Shown: positions 8,387 through 25,044 of the stretch, in pieces
How positions within the stretch are numbered: the first letter of the stretch is position 1
Layout: each line of letters begins with the position of its first letter
IMG/VR virus record: IMGVR_UViG_3300044491_004231
Span: 1 to 26,422 of that record
Length of the DNA: 26,422 nucleotides
Direction: 5' to 3' (one strand)
Source of the DNA: a virus
The notes under the pieces: generated by a model
Seen by the model: the letters and a program-made list of their open reading frames with translations, nothing else
Databases searched by the model: none
Told to the model about the DNA's origin: nothing
Made by a program: the position numbers and the translations under genes

Positions 8387-8394
8387 CTTTAAAC
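8387..8394 (-). promoter_or_regulatory. GTTTAAAG element (candidate late promoter) before gp36-like gene
   Basis: Reads GTTTAAAG on the minus strand, 23 nt before the ATG at 8363. It directly follows the U-tract of the capsid terminator, so termination and restart are fused. One of eight oriented copies near start codons in this window. Confidence 0.55.
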
Positions 8395-8420
8395 AAAAAG
8401 GGCCGACCCGAAGGCCAGCC
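8394..8420 (-). terminator. Rho-independent terminator after major capsid gene
   Basis: On the minus strand, arms GGCTGGCC and GGTCGGCC form an 8-bp stem (two G-U pairs) closed by a C-TTCG-G loop, an extra-stable tetraloop. CTTTTTG follows immediately. It lies 25 nt after the capsid stop codon, in the expected place to limit read-through into the connector genes. Confidence 0.85.
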
Positions 8421-8445
8421 GCTTGTTAGGTTTTTTGATTATATA

Positions 8446-9429
8446 TCAAGCAACAACGTTGGTGAAGATAGCGCCAGCGCCAACTTTACCACTTTCGCCC
8501 ATGCCGACTAGCTCGAAGGAACGCTCGACAAGGATGTCACCGGTGAATACACGGCGCTCGATGTTGAAACGCTCAGGAGTAGCAATAGGATAACCAGCAA
8601 GAGTGTAGGTGTATCCGAAAGCAGGGTTACCGTAGTTTGCATCCAGAGCAGGAGCGAAACCGTCGGTAGCACCAGAAGGCTGGTAGAAGAGAATGGCTAC
8701 GTTGTTGTAGATGTTCTCAAGAGCACCAGTGGACTGGTTAAGCTTGAGACGACGTGCAACACGAATCTCGTCAAGACCAAAGATGTTAGCGAGGGAAGCC
8801 TCGTTAACAAGGATACCGCGCTGCATGAAGTCACGGATTCTCTTGTTGCGCTTCAGGGCGTTGAAAGCGTCAGGTGAGATAACCATCTTATTAGGATAGG
8901 TACCGATCTGAGCGCGAACAGCTTCTTTAGCGTTGTCGATTAGAACTTCGACGTCAGAAGTGGCCTGGTTGAACTGGTCAGCACCAGAGTTGAGAGTTGC
9001 GAGGTCGAATGCGCAAGAAGTTTCATACGAAGCAGAGGCCGTAACGGCGTCAGCAACGGTGATCTCCCAGGACTGCATAAGACGATTTGCAGCGTCCTTA
9101 GCAGCGTACTGACGAAGGTCAAGCTGAGCAGCGCCATTCTTGGCTTCTGCTGCGATTTCCTCAGCAATCTCCCAGCTGATCGCTTCTTGACGGAGCGAGA
9201 AGCTTCTGGTTCCGAACTCGTTTTGGATCTTCTGGATGTTAGATCCTGGAGCACGGAGGAAGTTCTGAGCGGCAAAGGCTTCCTTGCCAAATACCAACGT
9301 ACGGCCGGCGCGAGTATTCATAGATACCGCGGGACCGAAGAATGTAGCTACGCCTTCGGCATTTTTATAGCCTTGGGCGAGTTGCGTAAGAATAGGGTCA
9401 ATTACGCGTACCTGATCTAGGTTCATCAT
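8446..9429 (-). CDS. Major capsid protein (HK97-fold type)
   Basis: 327 aa, in the canonical position after protease/scaffold and decoration genes. The N-terminus (VIDPILTQLAQGYKNAEGVA) and the ISWEIAEEIAAEAKNG helix resemble the long spine helix of HK97-fold capsid proteins. PNKMVISPDAFNALKRNKRIRDFMQRG and YPIATPERFNIERRVFTGDILVERSFELV match the P-domain/A-domain style of this group. It has the strongest ribosome site seen here (AAAGGAG) and is followed by a strong terminator, both fitting very high expression. No N-terminal propeptide is obvious. The specific capsid subfamily cannot be named without a profile search. Confidence 0.85.
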   Translation of the reverse strand: MMNLDQVRVIDPILTQLAQGYKNAEGVATFFGPAVSMNTRAGRTLVFGKEAFAAQNFLRAPGSNIQKIQNEFGTRSFSLRQEAISWEIAEEIAAEAKNGAAQLDLRQYAAKDAANRLMQSWEITVADAVTASASYETSCAFDLATLNSGADQFNQATSDVEVLIDNAKEAVRAQIGTYPNKMVISPDAFNALKRNKRIRDFMQRGILVNEASLANIFGLDEIRVARRLKLNQSTGALENIYNNVAILFYQPSGATDGFAPALDANYGNPAFGYTYTLAGYPIATPERFNIERRVFTGDILVERSFELVGMGESGKVGAGAIFTNVVA

Positions 9430-9439
9430 GATTAGTTTT

Positions 9440-9446
9440 CTCCTTT
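9440..9446 (-). promoter_or_regulatory. Strong Shine-Dalgarno of major capsid gene
   Basis: AAAGGAG on the minus strand, 10 nt before the first of two adjacent ATG codons. It is near-perfect, in contrast with most genes here, which lack one. Confidence 0.8.
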
Positions 9447-9454
9447 AGTATCTA

Positions 9455-9952: not shown

Positions 9953-9963
9953 TAGTAATTACC

Positions 9964-11307
9964 TCAGTTATTGTTTTCAATGACAAACTTAACAGCAGTT
10001 AAGTAGTCGCATTCGTTCTCTTCTGCATAAGATAATGCATCGGCGTGAACGTTAGCCGTGTTTGGATCGTAAGCGTATCCAGAAGCATTAGGCTCAACCG
10101 ACTTCGACTTTTTAGGAGCCGATGCTGGTGTTGCAAATTCTTCAAATGAAACCATAGAAGGTAGGGAATCAAGAACTCCACGCATGAAGTCAAATTGAGA
10201 TGCCTTACCGGTTTCAGAGAAATTCACAGAGTTCTTATGATTAAGAGTCTCCATGAAACGAACAAGGTCACCCTTAGGTACAACTTGTTCCGTAAGCTTG
10301 CCAGACTCATAGAGTCCTTCAGCAAACGAAGAAATTTCTTTCTCGCGAGCTAGCTTTTTTTGCTTATTAAGCTCTTCCTCGAGTTCGGCTACACGAGCGT
10401 TGAGGTTGTCAACACTCTGATCTCCAATGGCGGATTCGCCATGGTCTAGAGATTCGGTAGCCACAGGTGCAGCTTCTTCAGCGTGGTCGGCTGACTCTTC
10501 TTTCTTTACTTCTTTAACCTTTTCGGACATGTCAGTTTTCTTTTCTTCGTCTTCGTCCTCTTCTTTCTCATCCTCGGCCATATCAGCCTTGGCCTTAGTC
10601 TCTTCTTCTTTCTCTTTCTTTTCCTCTTCTTTTTCAGAAGTTTCTTCAGCATTATCAACTACCTCTTCGGCGTTGTCACTGACTTCTTCTTTCTTCTCTT
10701 CGTCGTCTCCTTCCTCTTTACCCTCTTTCTCTTCCATGTGCTTTTTAAGGCCTTCGGGCATTTCGCCGTAGGACATATCTTTCTCCATCATGGAGGTTGC
10801 TTGTTTCTTGAGAGCCAATGCTTGGAAGAGCTCGTCTTCGTCGTATTCGGCAGCTAGAGAGGCAATTTTCTTATCGTCATTTTCCATCTCGCCAGAAATA
10901 TCTTCCGCGCCGTCCTCTTTAGCAGGCTCTTCGCCTTCTCCCTCGGAATCCATCTCTTCTTCACCGCCTTCTTCAGCAGGTGCTTCTCCCTCTTCTTCAG
11001 GAGCCTCAGGTGCCTCTTCACCACCCTCGTCCTCTAGACCCATGTCGTCGCCTTCACCTTCACCTTCAAGGGCTTCAGCATCGGCTTCAGGGGCCATTTC
11101 TTCATCTGTTTCTTCGTCAGCGGCGTACTCCATCTTGTAGTCGGCTGGAGCGCCTGTTTCATCGACCTGGTTACCAGAGTCGTCATATACAGAAGGCTTA
11201 CCGCCTCCTATGTTGATATTGACGGTCATTCCACCCTCAGCATGATCAACACTCTGATCTACTGAGACCTCCTGAACCTCGTCAGCAGTTTTTCTTTTTC
11301 TAGTCAT
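9964..11307 (-). CDS. Nested scaffold protein from internal start (447 aa)
   Basis: An in-frame ATG (Met185 of the protease/scaffold protein) begins with MTRKRKTADE, just after the protease domain. The GTTTAAAG element at 11334-11341, minus strand, is 26 nt upstream, within the distance range seen at true gene starts. The product would be the acidic tract, coiled coil and C-terminus only, which is what a scaffold needs: filling the prohead, then being degraded. There is no Shine-Dalgarno, but several other genes here also lack one. Overlapping in-frame protease/scaffold genes are known from lambda (C/Nu3) and Mu (I/Z). Confidence 0.5.
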   Translation of the reverse strand: MTRKRKTADEVQEVSVDQSVDHAEGGMTVNINIGGGKPSVYDDSGNQVDETGAPADYKMEYAADEETDEEMAPEADAEALEGEGEGDDMGLEDEGGEEAPEAPEEEGEAPAEEGGEEEMDSEGEGEEPAKEDGAEDISGEMENDDKKIASLAAEYDEDELFQALALKKQATSMMEKDMSYGEMPEGLKKHMEEKEGKEEGDDEEKKEEVSDNAEEVVDNAEETSEKEEEKKEKEEETKAKADMAEDEKEEDEDEEKKTDMSEKVKEVKKEESADHAEEAAPVATESLDHGESAIGDQSVDNLNARVAELEEELNKQKKLAREKEISSFAEGLYESGKLTEQVVPKGDLVRFMETLNHKNSVNFSETGKASQFDFMRGVLDSLPSMVSFEEFATPASAPKKSKSVEPNASGYAYDPNTANVHADALSYAEENECDYLTAVKFVIENNN

Positions 11308-11859
11308 AGTAGAGTTGTTTGTTTCTAAGGCTTCTTTAAACGAAATAACGGTTTCTCCCTCTTCAGGAGCTAAATTGATAATTTTTTCGTCGTTAAATTC
11401 ACCTTCGGAAAAAGCAGTGAGTCCCTTTACGGCGGGAATCGAAACTAATCCAAGATGGCGGAGCGCCAATTTTCCAGGGTGCGGATTTGTTTCCGCGTCT
11501 GGCAAGTAGAAAGAACTACTTACTTTCTTGAACACTCCATCTTTAATCAGTTTTTCAGCCTTAGGGGTAAGTTCGACGTTACCCCATAATGCTTTACCTT
11601 TTCTCCAAAGATTTTTTACCCACCCTAACGCAGGTGTAGAGTCCGTTTGATCATGCCCAATAATTAACGGAGCTTCATGTTGGCTAGGGACGTAAGTACC
11701 GACCACCTGGTCCAAATCCTCCTCAGTGAACATCATTTTTTGCCCGGCGGAACTGATCTGAGGACCAGCCCTGAACATTTCGATGTGCACGGCCTTTTTG
11801 GGCTGTTGAGAAGAAAGTGGCTCTTCAGCGTTTAAAATTTGCTCCTTATTATTAGACAT
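9964..11859 (-). CDS. Mu gpI-like prohead protease fused to acidic scaffold
   Basis: 631 aa. Residues about 20-150 resemble the Mu I-type prohead protease: HIEMFRAGP, FTEEDLDQVVGTY, EAPLIIGHD, ALGWVKNLW, ELTPKAEKLIKDGVFKKVSSSFYL, then LRHLGLVSIPAVKGL. Residues about 240-460 are an extreme Asp/Glu/Lys tract with repeated DNAEE/DHAEE units. Residues 484-512 are a predicted coiled coil. The C-terminus (DALSYAEENECDYLTAVKFV) resembles the end of phage scaffold/I proteins. In Mu and lambda the scaffold is made separately from the 3' part of the protease gene. An in-frame ATG at residue 185 with an upstream GTTTAAAG suggests the same here. It starts 9 nt after the sheath stop. Confidence 0.8.
   Translation of the reverse strand: MSNNKEQILNAEEPLSSQQPKKAVHIEMFRAGPQISSAGQKMMFTEEDLDQVVGTYVPSQHEAPLIIGHDQTDSTPALGWVKNLWRKGKALWGNVELTPKAEKLIKDGVFKKVSSSFYLPDAETNPHPGKLALRHLGLVSIPAVKGLTAFSEGEFNDEKIINLAPEEGETVISFKEALETNNSTMTRKRKTADEVQEVSVDQSVDHAEGGMTVNINIGGGKPSVYDDSGNQVDETGAPADYKMEYAADEETDEEMAPEADAEALEGEGEGDDMGLEDEGGEEAPEAPEEEGEAPAEEGGEEEMDSEGEGEEPAKEDGAEDISGEMENDDKKIASLAAEYDEDELFQALALKKQATSMMEKDMSYGEMPEGLKKHMEEKEGKEEGDDEEKKEEVSDNAEEVVDNAEETSEKEEEKKEKEEETKAKADMAEDEKEEDEDEEKKTDMSEKVKEVKKEESADHAEEAAPVATESLDHGESAIGDQSVDNLNARVAELEEELNKQKKLAREKEISSFAEGLYESGKLTEQVVPKGDLVRFMETLNHKNSVNFSETGKASQFDFMRGVLDSLPSMVSFEEFATPASAPKKSKSVEPNASGYAYDPNTANVHADALSYAEENECDYLTAVKFVIENNN
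11334..11341 (-). promoter_or_regulatory. GTTTAAAG element inside protease gene, before scaffold start
   Basis: Exact GTTTAAAG on the minus strand, 26 nt before the internal ATG at 11307. It is coding (within ISFKEA), so it could be chance, but its spacing matches the intergenic copies and the internal start fits a nested scaffold. Confidence 0.4.
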
Positions 11860-11868
11860 TTTTAATTA

Positions 11869-14800
11869 TTAGACCGTAGTTGCGTTAAGTAAGTAATCGA
11901 ATCTGTCAACATTTCTAGAGAAGGTATCTTGTACCTGAGCAACCTGACCAGCAGGTGTTCTTACAACGGTAACAACAAGACGCTCAAGAGTTGGCGAAGT
12001 AGCCACATAAGCATCGAGTCTTAACGTTCCATTTTCTAGATCACTAACAGCGTTATTAGCATCAGAACAAACAACTAAGTAAGCTTGTTCTGGTCTAGCT
12101 CCAAAGAGTGCACCTTGGCGATAGAGTTGTCCCATTACCTGAGAGGCAATAGACTTGGCCCTAGCGTAAAGTGTACCAGCAGAGTCAATTTGCTCAAAGA
12201 GAACATCATCAAAGCTTCTTGCAAGTACGTCAAGAAGTACGTTTAGAATCGCACGTGTGTTGACAAACTTAAAGAGTGCATTGGAGCTCATTGTACGAGC
12301 ACCCCAAGCAACAATTCCTCTATTAGGAAGGCTCCTAATTGGATTGAGGCCTAAAGGATAAGTAACTTCTTGTTGCTGAGCCGTGATATCAAAGCGGAGG
12401 CCAGTGGCTCCTCTTAGTGGATATCTTGCTCCTGCAGGTGCTTGCTGGAAGCCTTCGTTCACATAACGAGAACAGGCAATACCGGCAATAAAGCTACTAG
12501 GCGGTACAAAACGTCCGCTTGAGTTTTTAATATAAGGAGCGTAGAAAGCACCGTGACCAAAAGGTACGCCGGCGGTTCCTTTAACAAAGGCAAGCTCATC
12601 TTGCACTTCGCTAAGGCTGAGTTCATCAGCTCCGCAATCAATAAGAGCAATATGCTGAGTTCCAGAAATACCCTCAACTTCTCCAAGCTTACCTTCGGCA
12701 GCTCTGAGCAATGATTGGGTAACTTTTACTCTTTCTTCACGAGCTTGAGTTTTAGTCATTCCGCCTACAGTGGCTTTGAATGAACCAAACGCTTCAGGTG
12801 CAAGTAAGAATCCGGGGCGATAATCGCCTGATCCCATACCTTGCTCAATAGCGTACACAAAGTCTTGAGAGCGCGCTTTCGCCGAGAGTTTGTAGTTAAC
12901 AAAGTCAGCCGCTTCGCTCAAAGAGTTAACTCTTGAAACGTTAGAATCCTTTTTGCCGTAGCGGTCAAGACCAGCAACAACAGGGGAAGGAATACCATTT
13001 TTAGATGTAATCTTTACCTTAAGAACATAATCGTGACGATAGAAACCGTTAGCGATGGAGCTGTCAAGATAAACTACAGTAGAAGAAGTGGTAAACGTAG
13101 GAGCAACTTCGACTTCAAACTGATCATCACGAGTAACAGCAGAGTCAACTTTAAAGCGATAGCCGTTGATTACAACGTAAGATCCTTCATAAATTTCTTC
13201 CGTGAACTTAGTAGATACTGTGCTAAAAGCAGATCCAGAAGCCGTATCTTCAGCAGGGTTACGAACGACGGCGTTGGTGTCAGAAGTGACTCCTACAACC
13301 TCGTAAGTTTTAGCTCCGATAAGAACTCTGTATCCAGCGGCAAGAACACTATTAAAGTTAGTACCGGATCCAATTAAGGAACCATTAGCCTCAAGATTTA
13401 AAGTTCCCGTCTGTGAAGATGTCGCGCCTTGGATAGTTGTAGAACCAGAGGTAACTGCAACGGTTCCTGTAAGTGCTTTTCCGTCGTTTGAAGGACGAAG
13501 CGCCGGAGCACCTGTTACACTTAAGCTAGCACCAATTGCTTCTCCGTTATTAGGAGCGTATCCACCTATTCCAAGAGATGTCTCGTAGTCTTCTACAACT
13601 GACTCAACATTATAATAAGCTTCTAGCTCTTTCTCTTCAAGAATTTCTCTAATAGAAGAGGAAACGCTATCCGTAAGCTCGGCAGGAGTAGCACCGTTAG
13701 CGATGATTACTCTGTTTTCTCCAGCAATGTTAACGTAGAAAGATTGAATAGTGTCAGGGACATATCCGAGTCTGTTTACGTTGCCACCAACAGAAGTAAT
13801 TGTTCCCTGTGGGATTTTAGTAAGACCTGTTCCATCAGCACCAGGAGTAAAGGCAGAGCCAGAAGCATCCCACTGATAGTAAGCAGCAGCAGCATCAGCC
13901 CAACGAACATGGTCATCTTTTCCGACTCTTTCGTCAGTTGAAACAGCGACGATCTTATCGTCAGGGATCGCAGAAGCAGAAGCATATACTTCTTGGTCAA
14001 CCAGGAAGTCCTCGATTGCTTGCTGGTTATCAGCAGCAACTGAAGGGTCATAAGCAAGTCTGCGAACTGTAACTACAGATGTTAAGTCGTTGCTGGTAAA
14101 TGTAAGAGCCGCATTTGATCCATTATTAATAATAAAGGTGTCAGTGCCAACATCTACACTTAATACTGTATATACTGTGCTATAGAAGATATTTCCAGTA
14201 GGAAGTTCACCAGCTGCTCCTTCAAATGCGATCTTGTCGCCTGCAGCAAGAGCCACACCGCCGATCTTAAGATCATCGATGTCTGCAACTTTTACCGCTC
14301 CGGTAGAGGCAGTAAAGGCGGCCGAAGGATCCGTTTTAACGGTCTTAGAAGTTTCTCCTAAGAAGTTTCCGATCGCGGCACCAGATACAAAAAGGATAGG
14401 CTCTTGTGTAGATACGTCTCTAGAAACACAACGGAAGTTGAGTTCTTTAACGGGGACATAACGACTAACAACACCTGCGTCTGTAGGAGATGCATAGGCG
14501 GTATCAGAGATCTGATAGCCTTTAAAGCTTTGAATGGTTGGAATTACGCGAGAGTCTTTAGAATAAATTCTAAAAGTTGCGTTCGATGCTTCTACTTCGT
14601 CTTGCTCAATCTTATAGAACGTGTTAAAATCAGGATCAGTTTTGCCAAGGTAGCCGACGATATCAAAGGCGTTGTCGTCAGCATCAAGAGCTGTAGTTGT
14701 GATCACTTTAATAGCAACACCGTCCGAGTCGTTAACACCTAAGGACTTATCCCCAAAGTAACGATCGCCGATCTTTAAAGCAAAAAGATTCCAACCAGCG

Positions 14801-15180
14801 CCTTTATTTACAACAACCTTCGACTCGGGTGTTGGGGTTACGCGGGTATAGTAGAGGATTCCGTTCACACCCACGTTTTCAAAGAATGACTTTACGGAAT
14901 CGTAAGAGATCATTGATTGCGGGTTGGTTGAAGCAGATGGCGTACCGCCTGCTCTTTGAACAAAATCTTCTAATGAACCAATCTGTGTTGGTTGATATGG
15001 TGGGAGAGCTGAATACTCGTCAACGGGATTTGTATCATATGGGTCTACGGGAGTAGATCCAAAGATATAACCAATAGCATGAGAAGCTATGGGTTGAGGT
15101 AATCCACCAGTCGATGACTGAGTAACAAACACTCCAGGACGCTGAATAGCGCCTACATTAATGTTTACAGGATTAGCCAT
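11869..15180 (-). CDS. Contractile tail sheath protein, unusually large (1103 aa)
   Basis: The N-terminus has the typical sheath opening PGVFVTQ (residues 15-21), followed by FEN-VGVNGILYYTRVTP. The C-terminal core (about 780-1103) shows AWGARTMSSNALFKFVNTRAILNVLLDVLARSFDDVLFEQ, then SQVMGQLYRQGALFGARPEQAYLVVCSD and a final beta strand, classic for sheath domains that interlock neighbouring subunits. Sheaths are usually about 400-700 aa. The extra length is in the middle (about 250-750), with beta-rich, Ser/Thr/Gly-rich segments such as SGSTTIQGATSSQTGTLNLEANGSLIGSGTNF, suggesting inserted domains exposed on the tail. It has its own GTTTAAAG element upstream. It proves the phage has a contractile tail. 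Confidence 0.9.
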   Translation of the reverse strand: MANPVNINVGAIQRPGVFVTQSSTGGLPQPIASHAIGYIFGSTPVDPYDTNPVDEYSALPPYQPTQIGSLEDFVQRAGGTPSASTNPQSMISYDSVKSFFENVGVNGILYYTRVTPTPESKVVVNKGAGWNLFALKIGDRYFGDKSLGVNDSDGVAIKVITTTALDADDNAFDIVGYLGKTDPDFNTFYKIEQDEVEASNATFRIYSKDSRVIPTIQSFKGYQISDTAYASPTDAGVVSRYVPVKELNFRCVSRDVSTQEPILFVSGAAIGNFLGETSKTVKTDPSAAFTASTGAVKVADIDDLKIGGVALAAGDKIAFEGAAGELPTGNIFYSTVYTVLSVDVGTDTFIINNGSNAALTFTSNDLTSVVTVRRLAYDPSVAADNQQAIEDFLVDQEVYASASAIPDDKIVAVSTDERVGKDDHVRWADAAAAYYQWDASGSAFTPGADGTGLTKIPQGTITSVGGNVNRLGYVPDTIQSFYVNIAGENRVIIANGATPAELTDSVSSSIREILEEKELEAYYNVESVVEDYETSLGIGGYAPNNGEAIGASLSVTGAPALRPSNDGKALTGTVAVTSGSTTIQGATSSQTGTLNLEANGSLIGSGTNFNSVLAAGYRVLIGAKTYEVVGVTSDTNAVVRNPAEDTASGSAFSTVSTKFTEEIYEGSYVVINGYRFKVDSAVTRDDQFEVEVAPTFTTSSTVVYLDSSIANGFYRHDYVLKVKITSKNGIPSPVVAGLDRYGKKDSNVSRVNSLSEAADFVNYKLSAKARSQDFVYAIEQGMGSGDYRPGFLLAPEAFGSFKATVGGMTKTQAREERVKVTQSLLRAAEGKLGEVEGISGTQHIALIDCGADELSLSEVQDELAFVKGTAGVPFGHGAFYAPYIKNSSGRFVPPSSFIAGIACSRYVNEGFQQAPAGARYPLRGATGLRFDITAQQQEVTYPLGLNPIRSLPNRGIVAWGARTMSSNALFKFVNTRAILNVLLDVLARSFDDVLFEQIDSAGTLYARAKSIASQVMGQLYRQGALFGARPEQAYLVVCSDANNAVSDLENGTLRLDAYVATSPTLERLVVTVVRTPAGQVAQVQDTFSRNVDRFDYLLNATTV

Positions 15181-15203
15181 AAAATAATTCTTTACAAAGT
15201 AAG

Positions 15204-15221
15204 AGGCCTTTCAGAAGACCT
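15204..15221 (-). repeat. Hairpin in the sheath leader region
   Basis: On the minus strand AGGTCTT and AAGGCCT pair (7 bp, one G-U) around a 4-nt loop, overlapping the end of the GTTTAAAG element. The following CTTACTTTG is a poor U-tract, so it may be a weak terminator for upstream transcripts or a leader hairpin. Confidence 0.4.
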
Positions 15222-15227
15222 TTAAAC
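15220..15227 (-). promoter_or_regulatory. GTTTAAAG element (candidate late promoter) before tail sheath gene
   Basis: Exact GTTTAAAG on the minus strand, preceded by TTT and 39 nt before the sheath ATG. It lies in the 66-bp gap after the 80-aa gene. Confidence 0.55.
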
Positions 15228-15246
15228 AAACAGTCTTTTTTAATCT

Positions 15247-15489
15247 TTAATCTTCTGTACTATTTCTATACAGTTCAAAAAGGTTATTCATTAGCCAGTC
15301 TGGGCAGCTTTCAGACCCGCATTTTTGGATATCTAATATTTTTAAAGCTTTTCTCATTATTTTATTAAAATCTACGTCTGTTACATGGTAAGAGCAAACT
15401 AGCACGAACTCTTTTAGCCTAATTTGATCTTGCTGAGTGGCTATCGAGCAAAGAATAAGGATAAGTTTTAGGCGAAGTTCATCGGTCAT
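15247..15489 (-). CDS. Small hypothetical protein (80 aa), tail-region operon
   Basis: Third gene of a leftward three-gene unit; its ATG follows the previous stop directly (TAAATG). The product is helical and hydrophobic-charged (LRLKLILILCSIATQQDQIRLKEF) with three Cys in the C-terminal half (QKCGSESCPDW). No family is recognised. Its position just before the sheath gene suggests a role in tail assembly. Confidence 0.6.
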   Translation of the reverse strand: MTDELRLKLILILCSIATQQDQIRLKEFVLVCSYHVTDVDFNKIMRKALKILDIQKCGSESCPDWLMNNLFELYRNSTED

Positions 15490-16249: not shown

Positions 16250-16276
16250 GGTTTGTGATTATATATACGTAACTTT

Positions 16277-16284
16277 CTTTAAAC
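16277..16284 (-). promoter_or_regulatory. GTTTAAAG element, leftward, in divergent gap
   Basis: Exact GTTTAAAG on the minus strand, 27 nt before the ATG at 16249. With the plus copy at 16312 it forms a 9-bp inverted repeat (TCTTTAAAC ... GTTTAAAGA) pointing outward to two divergent genes. Confidence 0.55.
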
Positions 16285-16311
16285 CTTAATTTTGATTTTT
16301 TGTTTAAAGAC

Positions 16312-16319
16312 ATCTTAGA
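16312..16319 (+). promoter_or_regulatory. GTTTAAAG element, rightward, in divergent gap
   Basis: Exact GTTTAAAG preceded by TTTTT, 11 nt before the ATG at 16331. The leader would be very short. It is the right-hand arm of the divergent inverted repeat. Confidence 0.5.
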
Positions 16320-16330
16320 AGAGATAAGAT

Positions 16331-16732
16331 ATGGCAATAAATTCTTCAAGCTCTCCGTACGGGCACTGGACCGAATCTCGTACAAATTCAGACTATAGAG
16401 CAAGACCTACTCAAAACAATGACTATGTCAAACAAGCACTAGCTCAAGAAAGATACTTAAGAAGCTCTAACAGAGTCAATCAAGGCCCTCAGTACAACAC
16501 ACGAAGAATAATGGCACAAAACACAGGACAAAATCCTCACGTATACGGCTCAGAAGACATGTGGGGATGGCAAAACTGGACAGAAAAAGCTAAAACAAAA
16601 AATGCCTCGACTCTTGCTCCAGGACTTTACGAAGTAAGTCCAACGGGAGACGCTCCTGGTACTCAGTACCCGGGGCCTTCTAGAGTGCAAGGTTGGGCTG
16701 GGTGCTCAAGTTGCAAGAGAAGAAGAATATGA
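16331..16732 (+). CDS. Hypothetical protein (133 aa), polar, with C-terminal CSSCKRRR
   Basis: First gene of a rightward island between leftward structural genes. The product is polar and rich in Ser, Asn, Gln, Tyr and Pro, with little hydrophobic core (SPYGHWTESRTNSDYRAR, then YGSEDMWGWQNW). It ends with a CxxC followed by a basic run. This composition suggests a flexible virion-associated or DNA-binding protein. A possible GAAGAGA ribosome site lies about 6 nt ahead. Its GTTTAAAG element links it with the late-type genes. No family is recognised. Confidence 0.6.
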   Translation: MAINSSSSPYGHWTESRTNSDYRARPTQNNDYVKQALAQERYLRSSNRVNQGPQYNTRRIMAQNTGQNPHVYGSEDMWGWQNWTEKAKTKNASTLAPGLYEVSPTGDAPGTQYPGPSRVQGWAGCSSCKRRRI

Positions 16733-16989: not shown

Positions 16990-16992
16990 TGA

Positions 16993-16998
16993 TATAAT
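16993..16998 (+). promoter_or_regulatory. TATAAT -10 box before dCMP deaminase gene
   Basis: A perfect TATAAT ends 21 nt before the ATG at 17020, the same spacing as at gnd, the 2159 gene and the polymerase. No good -35 is visible at 16-18 bp, so an activator or weak promoter is possible. Confidence 0.4.
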
Positions 16999-17019
16999 AT
17001 AGTCAGATATACTAAGACT

Positions 17020-17427
17020 ATGAAACCAGAAATAAAAGAAGCATATATGAAAACAGCTGAACTTTTTGCCCAGGTTTCAAATTGTACTAAATTAAAAGTA
17101 GGAGCAATTGTGGTTAAAAACGGAAGTATCTTGGCGCATGGCTGGAACGGTACACCGTCTGGTTTTCACACCAATTGCTGCGAACTAGAAGATGGCAGTA
17201 CAAATCCCTTTGTTCTCCACGCCGAACAGAATGCTCTTATAAAAATGGCCAAGTCTTCAGAATCAATTGATAAGTCCGAGCTATTTTGCACTCACAGTCC
17301 TTGTCCAGATTGCTCTAAAATGATTGCACAAAGCGGTATTAAAACTGTATACTATAGAAATGAGTACCGTATTGGAGATGGTATAAACGTACTAAGAAAA
17401 TTAGGCGTTAACGTAGAAAAAATGTAA
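17020..17427 (+). CDS. Deoxycytidylate (dCMP) deaminase
   Basis: Zinc enzyme that converts dCMP to dUMP, the precursor for dTMP, so it would help balance pyrimidine pools during phage replication. The zinc and catalytic residues are visible: HAEQNAL with His67 and Glu69, and SPCPDCSKMI with Cys95 and Cys98. The substrate-side motif GWNGTPSGF (41-49) is typical of dCMP deaminases of phage T4 and bacteria. At 135 aa it is compact compared with the T4 enzyme (193 aa) and lacks its extra zinc insertion. The leader is short without a Shine-Dalgarno. It is coupled to the next gene by TAATG. Confidence 0.9.
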   Translation: MKPEIKEAYMKTAELFAQVSNCTKLKVGAIVVKNGSILAHGWNGTPSGFHTNCCELEDGSTNPFVLHAEQNALIKMAKSSESIDKSELFCTHSPCPDCSKMIAQSGIKTVYYRNEYRIGDGINVLRKLGVNVEKM

Positions 17428-17771
17428 TGTTTGAAAGTCCTCAAGATCGAAAAAAGATAAAATCTATTTTTGAAAATCTTTCTCGTGATGAGAAAGAGCT
17501 TACTCCTATGTTCAAAAAGATCGCTCAAGATGGAGGTCCTATTGCTTTGTATGTTGCGACTAAAGACAATAGCGATATTACTTGGATGTTCGATAAAGAT
17601 GATATTAGCGAAATGCTTGGAGGTAAAGATACTCTGGACAGCATAACAGATCAGCTCCTACCTACTGAAAAAGACAAGGAAGAAGGAATAATATTTATTA
17701 TATTTAAAAAAATAGGACCTCTATACTCCGTAAGACTAGAAAGAGCAATTCTCCAAGAAACTTTTGCCTAA
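17427..17771 (+). CDS. Hypothetical protein (114 aa) after dCMP deaminase
   Basis: Starts in the TAATG that ends the deaminase gene, so it is probably coupled to it. The product mixes helices and strands (KIKSIFENLSRDEKELTPMFKKIA, PIALYVATKDNSDITWMF, GIIFIIFKKIGPLYSVRLER) and looks like a compact alpha/beta domain. No family is recognised. It ends at a palindrome shared with the convergent 17768 gene; both proteins end in Phe-Ala. Confidence 0.6.
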   Translation: MFESPQDRKKIKSIFENLSRDEKELTPMFKKIAQDGGPIALYVATKDNSDITWMFDKDDISEMLGGKDTLDSITDQLLPTEKDKEEGIIFIIFKKIGPLYSVRLERAILQETFA

Positions 17772-17778
17772 GCAAAAG
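17761..17778. repeat. Inverted repeat centred on overlapping convergent stop codons
   Basis: CTTTTGC and GCAAAAG form a perfect 7-bp stem around CTAA. The loop holds both stops: TAG of the minus gene (17768-17770) and TAA of the plus gene (17769-17771). It may be a small two-way terminator; on the minus strand TTTCTT follows the stem, on the plus strand there is no U-tract. Confidence 0.6.
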
Positions 17779-18706
17779 CCGTGATTATTTCATTAACTTT
17801 GCTTATTAAGTCTTTAATTTGGGGTACTATTTTATTTAAGTCTGTTATATTTTCTGAAACCTGACTAACTCTTAGTCTGAGATCTTCGGCTCCTCCGTCT
17901 CCAAGGTCAGAATCTGGAATAGTAACAGTTTCTCCTTCTAAGAAGTTTGCCCCGGTGTCATCTATAGAGGTTATAGAAGCTAGGCCATTTACATCTACAG
18001 ATATTGTTAAATCTAAATTAGATCCGTTGCTTCCAGATAAATTATCTATATCGTAAGTACCAGCGGTCCTACTAGTATTAGCAGATGAAAGAACCGAGAT
18101 AGAAACAACGCTACCGAAGCTATTAAACGCTGATAGCGCAAGACTATTTACTTTTCTAACTCGCTTGTAGATATCTTCGATAGAATCAGCGTTTACTTGG
18201 TTTTTATTTGATAGAGCGGCCTGCTCAGCAATTACTTCTGTCAAACTAATCTCTACTGCGGTTAAATCGTCAATTCTAGAAAGTTTGGAGTCTACCTGGT
18301 CAGATCTAGAATCAAAGCTATTTGCGATAGTGGAAACGGAGTCTTCTAATAACTCGAAAGCGTTTTCTAAATTTGTAATAGAAGAGGAAGAAGCATCTGC
18401 CAATGCTGCTTGCGCAGAGGCAATTGCTGTAGAAAATATTTTTAAGTCTCTGATCCCAGCATAAGTCCTATTTGCGAATCTGACGTTTACCGCTCCCTGG
18501 TCCGTTGTTGGGTCAACAACTTCACATAAAGAAGTGCCAAGCATTAGCCCACTTTTTGTGCCTGACCCATCTTCTACAAATAGAGTGGAGTCAGAAAGTA
18601 GCCCATCTTGAGAAAGCACTTCTCCTGTGCTGGCCAATTCTTGCCTGGAGACATTTAACAATCCTCCGGCGTAATCTTCAATAAATCTAGATCGAAGGTC
18701 TGCCAT
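17768..18706 (-). CDS. Virion structural protein with coiled-coil segment (312 aa)
   Basis: The N-terminus (RFIEDYAGGLLNVSRQELASTGEVLSQDGLLSDSTLFVEDGSGTKSGLMLG) resembles structural proteins I recall from marine cyanophages; their exact role is not known. Next comes an Ala/Ser-rich helical stretch (about 90-200) with heptad-like spacing, probably a coiled coil (ENAFELLEDSVSTIANSF, SRIDDLTAVEISLTEVIAEQAA). The C-terminal half is beta-rich, with Ile/Val/Thr and acidic turns, and a final helix. The layout suggests a trimeric fibre or baseplate-associated protein. It overlaps the previous gene by 20 nt. Confidence 0.65.
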   Translation of the reverse strand: MADLRSRFIEDYAGGLLNVSRQELASTGEVLSQDGLLSDSTLFVEDGSGTKSGLMLGTSLCEVVDPTTDQGAVNVRFANRTYAGIRDLKIFSTAIASAQAALADASSSSITNLENAFELLEDSVSTIANSFDSRSDQVDSKLSRIDDLTAVEISLTEVIAEQAALSNKNQVNADSIEDIYKRVRKVNSLALSAFNSFGSVVSISVLSSANTSRTAGTYDIDNLSGSNGSNLDLTISVDVNGLASITSIDDTGANFLEGETVTIPDSDLGDGGAEDLRLRVSQVSENITDLNKIVPQIKDLISKVNEIITAFA

Positions 18707-19511
18707 AGTGCTGATTAATTTGCGTTTCTTTAATATTCTTAGGGAAGAATGCGTACATTTGTATCGGTATTATACTCGTAGGAGGGGGATTATCCCATAA
18801 AACAAGCCAGTTATTAGTGACTAATAATCTTATTTTAGAAGCAATCCTAGTATTCCCCCAGTTGATATCATTTCCACGTAGATCTATCATAGTGGAATAA
18901 TTCTTTCTAAAGGGTGGAACGGTTCCGGGTATAATATTTGAAGAAGATGTTAGCGTGGGCGTAAAAGAAAATAGCGCCCTCTCCATAGCTTCTTCTGTAA
19001 GTCTACAGTTCTTTAAACTTAATACTTTGATATTTTTAGAGTATCCCAAATTAATTACTTCTAAGCTTAAGCAATCATTTAAATTTAAAACTTCTAAATT
19101 TTCTAGCTCTGTCGCCACAAAAGATTTTAAATCAGAGTTTCCTTCTAAATTTAAATTTTTTAAATAGCTCCTTTTTAAGTTAAAATTAGCATAGAGCAAA
19201 GAGTTTCTTTGTAAATTCATCACCTCTATTTTGGGATCTACACTGTACGTGCTCTCTTCTTCTATCCACAAGTCATCCCAAGTTAAAATATTTTGGTTTG
19301 TAAGCTTAAATTCTTTAATTGGTTGTGGAGAATTTGTGTCTATGGATACTACCATAGAATTAGTTTTTTGTTTGTACAGATACGCTTCGTCAGAAGATAT
19401 CTCTTCTTCGTCAAAAAATTTAACGTAATTAAAAGATGATCTTTGAGATTTATTAAAAGATAAAATCTTTACGTCTTTAGAATCAATTAAAAAACTCGTA
19501 GATATTCTCAT
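18687..19511 (-). CDS. Leucine-rich-repeat protein in tail gene cluster (274 aa)
   Basis: Residues about 95-175 contain successive leucine-rich repeats: LKNLNLEGNSDLKSF, LENLEVLNLNDCLSLEVINL, and NIKVLSLKNCRLTEEA, with Asn in the ladder position; a later MIDLRGNDINWGN fits another repeat. LRR solenoids bind proteins or glycans. The N-terminal about 95 residues are beta-rich and charged; the C-terminus is unknown. It lies between two probable virion genes, overlapping one by 4 nt (ATGA) and the other by 20 nt, so a virion or receptor-binding role is likely. A GTTTAAAG at 19011-19018 lies inside a repeat and is probably chance. Confidence 0.65.
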   Translation of the reverse strand: MRISTSFLIDSKDVKILSFNKSQRSSFNYVKFFDEEEISSDEAYLYKQKTNSMVVSIDTNSPQPIKEFKLTNQNILTWDDLWIEEESTYSVDPKIEVMNLQRNSLLYANFNLKRSYLKNLNLEGNSDLKSFVATELENLEVLNLNDCLSLEVINLGYSKNIKVLSLKNCRLTEEAMERALFSFTPTLTSSSNIIPGTVPPFRKNYSTMIDLRGNDINWGNTRIASKIRLLVTNNWLVLWDNPPPTSIIPIQMYAFFPKNIKETQINQHYGRPSI

Positions 19512-22500
19512 TTGAATAGGCCTCCAGAAAGAGTTTTAGGACAGAAATTTAAAAATTTGCCACCTGGCCCTCTTTTAAATCTTTTACATTTTAGCAAGTT
19601 CATACAGGCAAGATGGGCATATGGGTCCTCTAATAAAGAGCATTTAAAGGAGTCATCTCTTTCAAAGCCTCCCTTAATGGACTCAATAAGCCCATATTCT
19701 GTGTTATAGTAAGAGGCGTATAGAGACTCGTTAGCTTCCTCTTCTTCTTCTCTTTTTAAGAAAATTACAGGGTCTGTTTTTATTTCATTTTGAATAGGTA
19801 TTCCCTTATCACTAATCTTTAGATCGTTTCCTAAAAGCTTGAAATAAGCAGGTTTATTGTTGGCGCTATAGGGGAGGAATAAAGCCTCGGGTTTCAGTTC
19901 AGCAAAAGAGCCGTAAGGCCTATCTATAATAATAGAGTTATTATTTATAGGAGAGAAAGAAGTTGTGTCTCTTTGGGAAAATATAGACTTATTAATTGCA
20001 GTACCACAAGAGTTCACGTTACTTTCTACTCTAGATTCACATTTACTTCCGCCAAATTTTTTGCACGATTCTAAAGGACTAAATTTTTCAATTAACTTTT
20101 CTGAAATTAGCCCGTCAGCCACAGAGTTTTTTATTTTTTCTTGGACTTTAGTTTCTTGAGGATACGTCGATGGAATTTTTATCTCTGCAACTCTTTCTAT
20201 AGGCCCGGCATTTTCTACACCTAAGGTACTAGTTACTTCGTTACCTGGCGTATTTGATCTTTTTTCAGAGATATTATTAATATTTCTGTACGGAGAAAGA
20301 GAAGAAGTATCTCTAAAATCTTCAGAATTAGCCTCTATGAGAGACTTATGATCTTTTGCAAATGTAACAAACTTGCTGATAACATCAGCCGCAGTAATAT
20401 CAGAACTCTCCTTATTAGCTATAAAAGAAAAATTTTCTTTAATCTGAGGAGAGAATAAATTAGCCTGCTCTGGCGTAATAGATTGTTCTCTAGGTATAGA
20501 CTCTGGAACAGGAGAATTACCTATACCCGGAGAATTGAAGATTTCTGCTAGGCCATCAACTTTGGGACTTCCTATATTAGTAAGGTCTCCGTCTACAGGA
20601 ATAAGGCCTTTGATTATTTTAAAGAACTCTTCTGGCTTTTTATTTTGAGCATTAACTATATTTTCAAAGGGGTATAACCCAATACCATTTTGGCCAAACT
20701 TATAATCTAAAGAATTAACAAAGCTCGTAGTTGTTATATCTAGAAGAGTTGATAGATTTTGAACTAAAAAGACAAGAGAACCCAGCTCAATAGGATTTTC
20801 TGGAGATATAAAGAAGTTAGGAACTTGATAAGAATTAGAGTAGTAGCTAAGTTTTTGTAAAACCCCACTTAAATATCCATAATTAATTACTTTTGTTAGT
20901 CTTCCCCCACTATACCCATCTATTAGCTGTTCATACTCGTTATGACCTCTAGCGTCTTTAGTATTTAAAATAGAAATTAGCTCTTTAGGTGTTAGACCAT
21001 TGCTTTTATCAAACAAATTCTGAATAAGATTAGTTGATGCTCCTCCTAAGTTTTTATCTATAAGCTTAGACCACTGCTTCAAGGCTAAAGGAGCATTTTC
21101 ATTAGCGGTCATATAATCTATTGATTTTGAGTCGTAACCAAAGACGGATTGCCCATAAATTAAAGATTCAGTGATGGGTTTTAAAAGGTTAATTTTATCC
21201 TTGTCTAGAAGCATATTTGTTTCTTTATTTTGCAGTAGATAAGAAATAGACTCAAATAGGTCCAAATAGTTTCCAGATAAATATTTTTTGAAGACTTGCA
21301 GTTGGTCTGGATCAATTGCAAAAGTGAGATTAATAAGCAAACCAATTAGCTTCCCATACTTGCTCTCGTTAAAGGTAACTGCTGAGCTTTTATTTTTAAC
21401 AGCAAAATTTAATATATTTACTAAGCTATTTTCGTCTTGTAAGTAGAGATAGTTAATATAGCTATCTATTGCGCTTTCCCCACCATACTCGTAGATTAGC
21501 TGAGATAGTTCATAAGCTCTGAAGAAAGAGATTTGGTCTTTAGAGTCCGTTATTGGAGCAAACTTTAATAGCAAATCTTCAAAAGATTCAGCAGATAAAA
21601 ATAAGTCAATTTCTCCTTCTTGGAAGCTCAAAGATCTCAGCTGATTAGCTAATTCGTTCTTTTCAAGAATAGAAAATTTGAAAGAAATATCAGGTACAAA
21701 ACTTCCTGGGAGGTACCCAATACCTTCTATGCCAGAGTTCAGCTGCTCTAGATTAAATTGAATTTTCCTAGCCCAAGAGGCGATCTCTGTAAGTGACTCT
21801 GAGGTTAATGGCGGGCGATATAAAACGTCTGACAGCTTTCTATAAGAGCTTAACAAGTAAGAAAGCATGCCATTGAATCCTGGCAGGACTTTAGAGCCTT
21901 GATAGTCTTCTGCAAGAACTCTTGTGGGAATAAATACGTTTCCAAGTTCTGCAATTTCAATAGATATAGGACCATAGCCTTCATATCCTGGTAACAGACC
22001 TTCTTTTGTTAAGGAGGAATTAAGGCTGTCAATAGCGTCTGCAACAAAATTTGTAAGCGATAAAAGTCTCTCTATTCCAAATAAGACAATGTCAACGTCA
22101 GCTTCATCAGAGTACGGATTGGGATTTTTGTACGTATATTTATCTTCTATGCCGTCCTTATACTTGGCGTAAATGGGATTATAACTGATAATCTTAATGC
22201 TTTCTTCACCAGGCTTATCTTCTATTAAGATACTTTCAGGAAGTTTTAATTTTTGCTTAAAAGATCTTAAAGACTTGAAATTATCTAAGAAGCTCAACCC
22301 AGCAATTTTGTTTGTTTTTTCTTCAGAAAGAAAAAGAGAGTTAAACCTTCCAAAAAGACTTACGCCTTCTTCTCCATCAAATCCCGTGTTGGCAATTCTA
22401 CCGTATAAGCTTGCATAAAATTTTTCACAAAAACTAGCAATAAAATCCACATCTCCAATGGGAGATCCTTCGTACCCTCCAAAGTAGTTTACCGTTGCTT

Positions 22501-23410
22501 TTAGTGAAAGAATATTTGTTAGCACCGCTTTTCCTTTACCAGCAAATGTAAGGCCAAGATCTTTTTCGTCGTAGGTGAGTGAGCTCTTTACCTCTTTTAT
22601 TTCAGAATCTGATATTATACCGTTAATATCTCTTGAGTTAGTAAGAACTTGGTTTACATACACCTCGGCATTGTTTTTTAATTTATCTAAAAATCTTTGT
22701 TTTTTGGATAAAAATTTTGAATTAAATTCTGCCCATTCTTCTTTATTAAAATCCCAAAACGTCGGCTGGCTTATACCTTGATTCAAAGAGTATACTCTTT
22801 TATTATATATAGTAAGTCTTTTTGTGCTAAAAGAAGCACCCTCTTTGTATTGTTCTTTTTGATATTCCCAGTAAAGGTACTCAGGAATTAAGGTATGCAA
22901 GACTCTTTCTGAAATCTCGTCTTTAAAGTACTCCTCTCTTTCTATAGTAAACGACGGGGCATATTCTTCTACTAATTGAATAAGCTGATCTGACTTTAGT
23001 CCCTTTTGAAATAATTTTTCTTGGGTAATCTGTTTTATAATTTCAGATATGTACCTTTCTATATAATTTTCTAGCTGAGCGTTTCTGCCACCACTTTGCG
23101 CTATAAATTGAAATAAAACTTCTTGACAGTACACCAGTATAGTTACAAATAGAGTAACATCAAATCCTAGCTCCACTAGCGTGAAAGCTAACTGATTATA
23201 TAAAGGAATTATAGACGTAGGTTTTTCTTCTAATATCCTATTTAGTACGTCCCCTAGTAAATCGACGTATAATTTTTTATAAGCCTTTCTCTTAGCACTT
23301 ATTTCTATTTCTCCTTGCGTTTGCTCATACGCATTAAGAGCTTGATCCACCACAAAAGAAAGATTTGAAGCGATGGCGTTCGCTTGTTGTTGAGTTAATG
23401 CAGTTAGCAT
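19508..23410 (-). CDS. Giant virion-type protein of unknown fold (1300 aa)
   Basis: First gene of a leftward three-gene unit, with a GTTTAAAG element 20 nt upstream. The first about 160 residues are helical (LTQQQANAIASNLSFVVDQALNAYEQ, KKLYVDLLGDVLNRILEEKP). Most of the rest is rich in Leu, Ile, Ser, Asn and Tyr with alternating helices and loops, and no transmembrane cluster stands out. The last about 200 residues hold most of the Cys (CKKFGGSKCES, CGTAINKS, then CSLLEDP, CMNLLKCKRF, FCPKTL), perhaps a disulphide- or metal-stabilised domain. Size, position and late-type promoter suggest a baseplate, fibre or long structural protein. No family is recognised. Confidence 0.65.
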   Translation of the reverse strand: MLTALTQQQANAIASNLSFVVDQALNAYEQTQGEIEISAKRKAYKKLYVDLLGDVLNRILEEKPTSIIPLYNQLAFTLVELGFDVTLFVTILVYCQEVLFQFIAQSGGRNAQLENYIERYISEIIKQITQEKLFQKGLKSDQLIQLVEEYAPSFTIEREEYFKDEISERVLHTLIPEYLYWEYQKEQYKEGASFSTKRLTIYNKRVYSLNQGISQPTFWDFNKEEWAEFNSKFLSKKQRFLDKLKNNAEVYVNQVLTNSRDINGIISDSEIKEVKSSLTYDEKDLGLTFAGKGKAVLTNILSLKATVNYFGGYEGSPIGDVDFIASFCEKFYASLYGRIANTGFDGEEGVSLFGRFNSLFLSEEKTNKIAGLSFLDNFKSLRSFKQKLKLPESILIEDKPGEESIKIISYNPIYAKYKDGIEDKYTYKNPNPYSDEADVDIVLFGIERLLSLTNFVADAIDSLNSSLTKEGLLPGYEGYGPISIEIAELGNVFIPTRVLAEDYQGSKVLPGFNGMLSYLLSSYRKLSDVLYRPPLTSESLTEIASWARKIQFNLEQLNSGIEGIGYLPGSFVPDISFKFSILEKNELANQLRSLSFQEGEIDLFLSAESFEDLLLKFAPITDSKDQISFFRAYELSQLIYEYGGESAIDSYINYLYLQDENSLVNILNFAVKNKSSAVTFNESKYGKLIGLLINLTFAIDPDQLQVFKKYLSGNYLDLFESISYLLQNKETNMLLDKDKINLLKPITESLIYGQSVFGYDSKSIDYMTANENAPLALKQWSKLIDKNLGGASTNLIQNLFDKSNGLTPKELISILNTKDARGHNEYEQLIDGYSGGRLTKVINYGYLSGVLQKLSYYSNSYQVPNFFISPENPIELGSLVFLVQNLSTLLDITTTSFVNSLDYKFGQNGIGLYPFENIVNAQNKKPEEFFKIIKGLIPVDGDLTNIGSPKVDGLAEIFNSPGIGNSPVPESIPREQSITPEQANLFSPQIKENFSFIANKESSDITAADVISKFVTFAKDHKSLIEANSEDFRDTSSLSPYRNINNISEKRSNTPGNEVTSTLGVENAGPIERVAEIKIPSTYPQETKVQEKIKNSVADGLISEKLIEKFSPLESCKKFGGSKCESRVESNVNSCGTAINKSIFSQRDTTSFSPINNNSIIIDRPYGSFAELKPEALFLPYSANNKPAYFKLLGNDLKISDKGIPIQNEIKTDPVIFLKREEEEEANESLYASYYNTEYGLIESIKGGFERDDSFKCSLLEDPYAHLACMNLLKCKRFKRGPGGKFLNFCPKTLSGGLFK

Positions 23411-23430
23411 ATCCGCACGCTTTTTTTAAA

Positions 23431-23438
23431 CTTTAAAC
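23431..23438 (-). promoter_or_regulatory. GTTTAAAG element, leftward, in divergent gap
   Basis: Exact GTTTAAAG on the minus strand, 20 nt before the ATG at 23410. A near-copy (GTTTAAAA) follows directly. It is the left arm of a palindrome shared with the rightward copy. Confidence 0.55.
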
Positions 23439-23443
23439 TTTAA

Positions 23444-23451
23444 GTTTAAAG
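23444..23451 (+). promoter_or_regulatory. GTTTAAAG element, rightward, in divergent gap
   Basis: Exact GTTTAAAG, 21 nt before the ATG at 23473. It is the right arm of the 21-bp palindrome. Confidence 0.55.
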
Positions 23452-23472
23452 CTTTGTAGCAAATTTGAAACT

Positions 23473-23940
23473 ATGCCTTCTAAAATCTCTGTTACTATTA
23501 TAAAAACAAAATCTGTTGACGCAGTTTCTGACCTAAATAAAATGGCTGTACACTTAGAGCAGGTTTTAACTGAAAAAGAAGGAGTTGAGGTAAAGACTAG
23601 ACAGTCAGTTACAGAGACCGTAATAAAATCTTCAGACTATATTGTTTTTATAGGTTGGGACACTCTAGGAATTTCTAATATTTTCTCTGCACTTCATACG
23701 CTTGAAAAAACAGAAGTAGAGGACGATAAAAAAATATTCTTATTTGACGAGCCAGGAAGTAATTGCTGGGATGATTTAAATAGGTTACTCACGTTCGGCA
23801 TGGATTTAGATAGAATAGACAGTAAACTTTTTACAAAAATTGAGCATTGTTGGAACTATCGTGATATAATGAGCTATATAGACCTAAAGTTAAGAAAGTC
23901 AGAAGCTAATGCAAACTCAGGAGATTCTAGCGCTGTGTAA
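23473..23940 (+). CDS. Hypothetical alpha/beta protein (155 aa), possible Rossmann-like nucleotide-binding fold
   Basis: Alternating strands and helices: KISVTIIKTKSV, VIKSSDYIVFIGWDTLG, then DKKIFLFDEPGSNCWDDLNRLL and a closing helix FTKIEHCWNYRDIMSYIDLKLR. The order SDYIVFIGW then KKIFLFDEPGS resembles Rossmann-like nucleotide-binding families (SLOG/LOG or deoxyribosyltransferase type), but no catalytic signature (such as PGGxGTxxE) is present. This is a fold guess only. First gene of the rightward unit leading to the portal; the C-terminus overlaps the next gene by 32 nt. Confidence 0.6.
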   Translation: MPSKISVTIIKTKSVDAVSDLNKMAVHLEQVLTEKEGVEVKTRQSVTETVIKSSDYIVFIGWDTLGISNIFSALHTLEKTEVEDDKKIFLFDEPGSNCWDDLNRLLTFGMDLDRIDSKLFTKIEHCWNYRDIMSYIDLKLRKSEANANSGDSSAV

Positions 23941-24874
23941 TATTGAGGAGTCTGCATTAGATAAAATTTTAGCGCATGATAAATGGAAGCTAGAACAACA
24001 ACTTATTCACGATAAGTGGGTTGTTGAGTTTAATGCACATATCAAAAGTACCTCAAGACCTAAAATAATAACCACTCAAAATCTCTCTGAAGACGACGTG
24101 CTTATTAACGAACTAACTGGGTACGGAGAACTCGACGAAACGCATATCGGAAAGCTTTCAAAAACCCCGGTGTGGCAAGCATCAGAAAACAAAGCAATAG
24201 ATATTTTTTACGAATGGAAAAAAGCTATTAAGGATATAGACGATTTGCCTAAAAAAGATCTTAGTGACTCTAGGACCAAAAAGCTTTTAACAACCTTTCT
24301 CTGGTCTAACTCTCTCGCACAACGGAGTGTTCTTTGGCCAGATGGAAAAGACATGCATTATGTAGAGGCCGCAAAAAGAGAGATTAAACAAAAACTCCAG
24401 TCTTACGCAGATATAACTATTGTTAGATGCTATGAATCTTTTAAAAAGTTTTGGAAAGAAGTTAATGACGGAGCCGAAGTCGAGTTTAATTCAACCTTCA
24501 TGGCGCAAGTTTTAGACAACGCTTACGAAGAGACTCTTAAAAAAGAAAGGATAACCAAAAAATCTGATCTTTTAAAGTCTCCTTTATTTATAAAAATATC
24601 AGAAGATCATCCTAATATAGACCTAGAAGATCTTAAAGATCAAATGATCGCTAAGAGAGGAGATTTTATAAGCGCTATTTTAGCAATAGAGCTAAAAACA
24701 TTTTCCTTGACCGTCCCAGAAAAGTATAAAGAGCTATACACCCAAGATTCTTGGGGGGAAAACTACTTCAAGTACGTACGAAAATACGACGAAGCTTGGA
24801 GAAAAACTTATAAGTCATTGTATCAATCTATCCGCAAAGAACAAGAACTATGGAAGAAGGAATTAACATTTTAA
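23909..24874 (+). CDS. Hypothetical helical protein upstream of portal (321 aa)
   Basis: Starts 32 nt inside the previous gene and overlaps the next by 25 nt. The product is strongly helical and charged, rich in Lys, Glu and Trp (DKWKLEQQLIHDKWVVEFNAHIK, WRKTYKSLYQSIRKEQELWKKEL). The N-terminus (TQEILALCNIEESALDKIL) could be a small helix-turn-helix-like domain. Position two genes before the portal suggests a packaging or head-assembly role, such as a small terminase, but no motif proves it, and no ATPase or nuclease motif of a large terminase is present. Confidence 0.6.
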   Translation: MQTQEILALCNIEESALDKILAHDKWKLEQQLIHDKWVVEFNAHIKSTSRPKIITTQNLSEDDVLINELTGYGELDETHIGKLSKTPVWQASENKAIDIFYEWKKAIKDIDDLPKKDLSDSRTKKLLTTFLWSNSLAQRSVLWPDGKDMHYVEAAKREIKQKLQSYADITIVRCYESFKKFWKEVNDGAEVEFNSTFMAQVLDNAYEETLKKERITKKSDLLKSPLFIKISEDHPNIDLEDLKDQMIAKRGDFISAILAIELKTFSLTVPEKYKELYTQDSWGENYFKYVRKYDEAWRKTYKSLYQSIRKEQELWKKELTF

Positions 24875-25044
24875 CAACTGGGCATAACGTTAAAGTCGAC
24901 GGAGCCGAGGAGCTAATTGAAGAATGGGAAAATGGAAACATTACCCGGGAAGAGCTAAGAGAAAAGCTTATGAACCTAGAAACAATTGTTATTGATCTAA
25001 CCCAGGTAGTTGAGCCTAGTAAGTTTAAAGATAGCGAAGAATGA
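24850..25044 (+). CDS. Small acidic hypothetical protein (64 aa) before portal
   Basis: The ATG lies 25 nt inside the end of the previous gene, within a GAACAAGAACTATGGAAGAAG context. The product is acidic with one clear helical pair (AEELIEEWENGNITREELREKLMNL), then a short hydrophobic strand (TIVIDLTQVV). No family is recognised. The last codons contain the GTTTAAAG element that precedes the portal. Confidence 0.55.
   Translation: MEEGINILTTGHNVKVDGAEELIEEWENGNITREELREKLMNLETIVIDLTQVVEPSKFKDSEE
25023..25030 (+). promoter_or_regulatory. GTTTAAAG element (candidate late promoter) before portal gene
   Basis: Exact GTTTAAAG, 30 nt before the portal ATG at 25061. It lies in the last codons of the 64-aa ORF, so it could boost portal expression independently of the upstream genes. 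Confidence 0.5.

Follow-up and report, generated by a model that had tools for sequence, protein, structure and literature searches.

TIM5-like cyanophages very probably transcribe their late genes from a promoter that consists of a single -10-type box, GTTTAAAG, to which a phage-encoded sigma factor, gp108, would direct the host RNA polymerase; start sites, lateness and recognition by gp108 are parts of this reading that we infer from sequence comparison. TIM5-like phages are viruses of ocean cyanobacteria that are widespread and little studied, and the window, by which we mean the whole 26.4-kb virus record analysed here, is a piece of such a phage (Aurunvirus). Its mitochondrial-type DNA polymerase is 91% identical to those of S-TIM5, S-TIM54, S-TIM61 and S-TIM66 and its tail sheath 67-70% identical to theirs, and its genes include a Mu-type portal and a Mu-type protease. 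No late promoter or motif of TIM5-like phages is described in the literature that we searched, though the original S-TIM5 paper (Sabehi 2012) may mention one.

Nine exact copies of GTTTAAAG are present in the window (Table 1), where the mean of dinucleotide shuffles is 2.14 and a count of nine is reached in one of 100 shuffles, which bears out the original prediction of nine copies and of an excess over chance. Eight of the nine positions were also as first given, the copy placed at 16312 in fact beginning at 16302. It had further been claimed that seven of the boxes point at genes from just upstream of their start codons, and this stands, at gaps of 20-39 nt rather than 11-39 nt: seven of the nine lie in sense orientation no more than 60 nt before a start codon, and with such positions making up 3.2% of all stranded positions of the window, the probability of at least seven of nine is 1.3e-9. 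Among 1,624 upstream 8-mers of the window GTTTAAAG ranks first. Words with one mismatch are not in excess (47 against 47.3 expected), so that the box is to be taken as a strict word, and all nine boxes, including the two within genes, are conserved in relatives.

Table 1. Candidate promoter elements and associated features of the window (start distances in nt)
Feature	Coordinates	Strand	Position and context
Late box GTTTAAAG	8387..8394	-	23 nt before ATG of the 7566-8363 virion gene
Virion gene	7566-8363	-	Mu Gp36-like; S-TIM5 gp154 ortholog
Intrinsic terminator hairpin	8401..8420	-	After capsid gene; T-run adjoins late box at 8394
Proposed nested scaffold reading frame	9964..11307	-	Acidic half of protease-scaffold gene 9964-11859; putative start at in-frame ATG
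Late box	11334..11341	-	Inside Mu-like protease gene; 26 nt before in-frame ATG (11307)
Late box	15220..15227	-	39 nt before tail sheath ATG (gene 11869-15180)
Late box	16277..16284	-	27 nt before 15905-16249 gene
Late box	16302..16309	+	21 nt before 16331-16732 virion gene; divergent to 16277 box
TGATATAAT, extended -10, host-type non-late class	16990..16998	+	21 nt before dCMP deaminase (17020-17427)
Late box	19011..19018	-	Inside 18687-19511 gene; 304 nt before downstream virion gene (17768-18706)
Late box	23431..23438	-	20 nt before 19508-23410 virion gene
Late box	23444..23451	+	21 nt before 23473-23940 gene; divergent to 23431 box
TGATATAAT, extended -10 of second promoter class	23862-23870	+	
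Late box	25023..25030	+	30 nt before Mu-type portal gene (25061-)

A scatter of copies within genes and in both orientations, named beforehand as what would speak against a promoter, was not seen in the complete genomes of S-TIM5 (172 kb) and S-TIM54, in which 25 of 36 and 27 of 38 copies, respectively, stand upstream of genes in sense orientation and GTTTAAAG is the most upstream-enriched of all 8-mers (P~1e-24 to 1e-27). Contigs from IMG/VR give comparable upstream fractions (24/34, 14/24, 20/29 and 9/11), and at IMG/VR sheath loci the word is retained in the near clade, down to a sheath identity of ~63%. As the box is an 8-mer with a TTTAAA core, a couple of chance copies are to be expected in an A+T-rich genome, and it might thus be a compositional accident; that reading can be regarded as refuted by the probabilities of 1e-9 in the window and of 1e-24 to 1e-38 in relatives, by the lack of a one-mismatch excess and by the conservation of synonymous codons at the boxes within genes. 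One record, L342 (MW495066.1, 'Microcystis phage MaAM05'), carries rpsA, rplU, rpmA, ispH and trpS; it appears to be a contig of bacterial rather than phage origin.

Two positive controls run through the same pipeline returned TATAAATA first for T4 (22/32) and ATAAATAA first for the T4-like marine Synechococcus phage Syn9, and Cr-LKS4, a phage whose sigma factor is 25% identical, has no such box (2/14 upstream). Like the late promoters of Syn9, those proposed here belong to phages of marine Synechococcus hosts and have a single-box element, but the box is a different one, and GTTTAAAG, present in only three copies in Syn9 with one of them upstream, is no element there. This comparison bears on the idea that the box is read by an alternative sigma factor of the host, for example one of group 3 (SigF-like), which would suit the dependence of the phage on host polymerase and the resemblance of the GGGTAAAA word of the distant relative S-CBWM1 to SigB/SigF-type -10 elements. 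Since, among the phage genomes compared, another phage of marine Synechococcus uses ATAAATAA, and since the box changes with the phage clade and every genome has a sigma factor of its own, we consider a host alternative sigma very unlikely.

In S-TIM5 the box does mark virion-type genes, as originally predicted: it stands directly before 18 of 46 virion genes and before two of the 39 known non-virion ones (P=2e-4), and for 42 of the 46 virion genes there is a box further upstream in the same-strand run. The non-virion exceptions are alpha-glucosyltransferase and phoH, and one further box stands 201 nt before psbA; because of these few boxes the regulon is not purely virion. Judged by the identity of the genes that they precede, the boxes would serve late transcription.

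Pooled alignments agree with the original observation that there is no common -35 element: in the two main box types, upstream positions carry ~0.2 bit or less each, the box-adjoining base excepted. Sigma-70-type promoters at the boxes were rejected, a generic scan returning 32 sites, no more than the 35.9 of shuffles. Downstream, by comparison of three lineages with three different boxes, a common signal is found in the form of an A at +14, counted from the box's first base (7 nt past its end), usually preceded by T. In the GTTGAAAG lineage the downstream pattern is GTTGAAAGC-N4-TAGA, with T at 64%, A at 75%, G at 60% and A at 60%; in the GTTTAAAG class the initiator is weaker. The distance from box to start codon has a median of 25-27 nt and a 10th-90th percentile range of 19-43 nt, with some boxes at 82-84 nt and one at 304 nt, and because it varies in this way the downstream A must be tied to the box and not to the ATG. 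A box with an A 7 nt further on is a -10-type element with its initiator, at which transcription would begin.

The closeness of the box to start codons might instead reflect a leader element that acts at the RNA level, such as a translation enhancer or a processing site. Against such an element stand the varying distance to the start, the second signal at a fixed distance from the box rather than from the ATG, and the terminator hairpin behind the capsid gene that leads directly into the box at 8387, a junction as expected where one transcription unit ends and the next begins; an RNA-level role is thus most unlikely, and we continue with the box as a promoter. The 25-nt leader CTGAAAGGCCTCTTACTTTGTAAAG between late box and sheath ATG (15181-15219, minus strand) has kept its sequence throughout the near clade. 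A hairpin that it forms in some genomes is broken in L055, L065 and L077 and is therefore not a conserved structure. A variant, GATTAAAG (15245-15252, minus strand, in the window), precedes the sheath late box by ~25 nt in most near relatives, and this word, too, is found in excess before genes (29/66 across six GTTTAAAG-type genomes).

A divergent phage sigma factor, for which the original prediction proposed a search, was indeed found: each TIM5-like genome tested has one sigma-70-family gene of the S-TIM5 gp108 family, S-CBWM1 having a second sigma. In a profile search, region 2 (PF04542) is above cut-off in seven of seven genomes, S-TIM5 gp108 lying just below it by hmmscan; gp108 matches phrog_351 (E=5e-18) and SigA in the PDB (E=4e-6), and its match to cyanobacterial SigA runs across regions 2-3. 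An AlphaFold model of gp108 (pLDDT 72.5, pTM 0.38) has sigma-like helical domains and a predicted C-terminal helical domain, and Foldseek alignments of this model to whole sigma factors span 215-262 columns, most of the sigma length, with TM-scores that are low because the placement of the domains is uncertain; at these low scores, the alignments may point to a divergent sigma-4 fold. In its size and its sigma-2/sigma-3 layout gp108 is like the group-3 sigma factors (SigF/FliA/sigma-32 class), and the annotators of S-TIM54 named it SigF, but unlike these it has no Pfam match to region 4, and the promoters linked to it have no -35. The sigma gene sits behind a thioredoxin-like gene (PF00085; S-TIM5 gp107; 11106-11420, minus strand, in L011), and one may speculate on a redox link to late transcription. 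In the other genomes examined, a CxxC-bearing gene occupies the same place before the sigma gene.

The operon formed by the thioredoxin-like gene and gp108 has TGnTAnnnT and no late box in nine of nine genomes, where 0.06-0.12 occurrences per gap are expected. In S-TIM5, promoters of the TGnTATAAT class, which takes the form TGGTATAAT before the sigma operon, are also found before topoII, nrdA, thymidylate synthase and dCMP deaminase, and this second class, represented in the window by TGATATAAT, is probably early or middle. Under the mechanism that we propose, host sigma would act first, reading the TGnTATAAT-class promoters including that of the sigma operon, and gp108 would be made; gp108 with host RNA polymerase would then read GTTTAAAG, the DNA being melted just downstream, and RNA would start ~7 nt beyond the box at the A, which is often part of a TA(G); short 5' leaders would follow from this. 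The virion genes would come last, an order that we draw from the host-type promoter of the sigma operon and its lack of a late box.

That gp108 binds the box is suggested by their co-occurrence and co-divergence. The box could also be the site of a phage-encoded activator that aids the host SigA holoenzyme, much like the T4 MotA box, with no dedicated sigma involved; phage activator sites, too, are lineage-specific and stand upstream of genes, and gp108 might then serve other promoters. In all three box types, however, the box occupies the -10 position relative to a TA initiator at fixed distance, no TAnnnT element at fixed spacing is present downstream of the pooled boxes, and the host-type promoters form a separate class, no gene having both these and a late box. 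An activator site is accordingly unlikely, and recognition by gp108 is the reading that we prefer.

Sigma and box would have changed in step to GTTGAAAGC in a sister clade, where this word stands before many of the same genes as GTTTAAAG. Four contigs of this clade have GTTGAAAG(C) upstream at 29/39, 26/40, 22/28 and 14/21, and GTTGAAAG is GTTTAAAG with one letter changed (T-to-G); in G011, where S-TIM5 box genes have 14 orthologs, it precedes nine of these and GTTTAAAG none. The more distant S-CBWM1 (L017-L019), with its two sigma factors, lacks GTTTAAAG altogether and has GGGTAAAA(T) as its own upstream word (21/34). A further candidate switch, GTTTAAGG at the clade B sheath gene, proved to be local, the genomes concerned using GTTTAAAG overall. 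The change of box in the sister clade is probably due to a change in the phage's own sigma factor. Residues by which the sigma factors of the two box types can be told apart include a group (V70L, C/N73S, Q/N75T, H77Q and M78L) that aligns with SigA regions 2.3-2.4; L136 combines N at position 73 with a GTTTAAAG context, which speaks against residue 73 as the sole determinant. Few independent events may lie behind the pairing of clade and box, namely one T-to-G switch plus S-CBWM1.

The two boxes inside genes fared differently with respect to the original prediction. The relation of the 11334 box to an internal ATG was confirmed, the ATG being in frame. At this box the codons TCG-TTT-AAA are shared by each of the 26 distinct sequences of GTTTAAAG type, TCG accounting for 7% of serine codons in S-TIM5; the equivalent site in the sister clade mostly reads TCA-TTY-CAR and contains no box, and an internal GTTGAAAG sought in the protease gene of clade C is not present. 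Nested protease-scaffold genes are known from phages Mu (I/Z) and lambda (C/Nu3), and because the nested frame fits this arrangement, the 11334 box is probably the promoter of a nested scaffold protein with a putative start at the internal ATG. As in those phages, there is a protease (here Mu-like, PF10123) whose C-terminal half is acidic and whose gene has an internal start in frame; unlike there, the nested start has a late box of its own before it. The 19011 box had been thought to lack an obvious role, which does not agree with its conservation at the nucleotide level: the codons AGT-TTA-AAG are invariant in all near relatives while neighbouring codons drift, and TGTAG is found at the initiator position. 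A nested start here was rejected, as the downstream ATG is not conserved, and for this reason we prefer to see the box as probably an internal promoter for the next virion gene.

The T4 late promoter, TATAAATA, is an 8-bp single box at -10 with no -35 and an A+T-rich downstream segment, and depends on the phage sigma-family protein gp55 (PMC2988020). The promoters described here resemble it in having one strict 8-bp box of -10 type in sense orientation, no -35, A+T-rich DNA on the downstream side, late genes on either strand and a phage sigma-family factor. They differ in the top word, and whereas gp55 is sigma-70-like in domain 2 only, gp108 is so across regions 2-3 and carries the predicted C-terminal helical domain. 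No gp45 sliding clamp (PF09116, PF02916) was found in six genomes, with PF09116 detecting its T4 control at E=4e-53, and a gp108 profile finds no match in the T4 genome at E<=10. The analogy with T4 is therefore architectural only, so that the original comparison with T4 was apt for the architecture and not for a homologous system.

It seems likely to us that TIM5-like phages have clamp-free single-box late systems in which sigma and the whole promoter set moved jointly to a specificity that differs in one base (GTTTAAAG to GTTGAAAGC; S-CBWM1 has the further GGGTAAAA form). With a strict box of this kind, late transcription units can be assigned in metagenomic fragments from sequence alone, internal promoters such as that of the nested scaffold come to light, and a probable regulator can be named. 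With a one-base switch between clades and a short list of parallel sigma residues, the co-change of sigma and promoter is directly testable and, if true, would provide a natural series for how sigma region 2 selects the -10 sequence.
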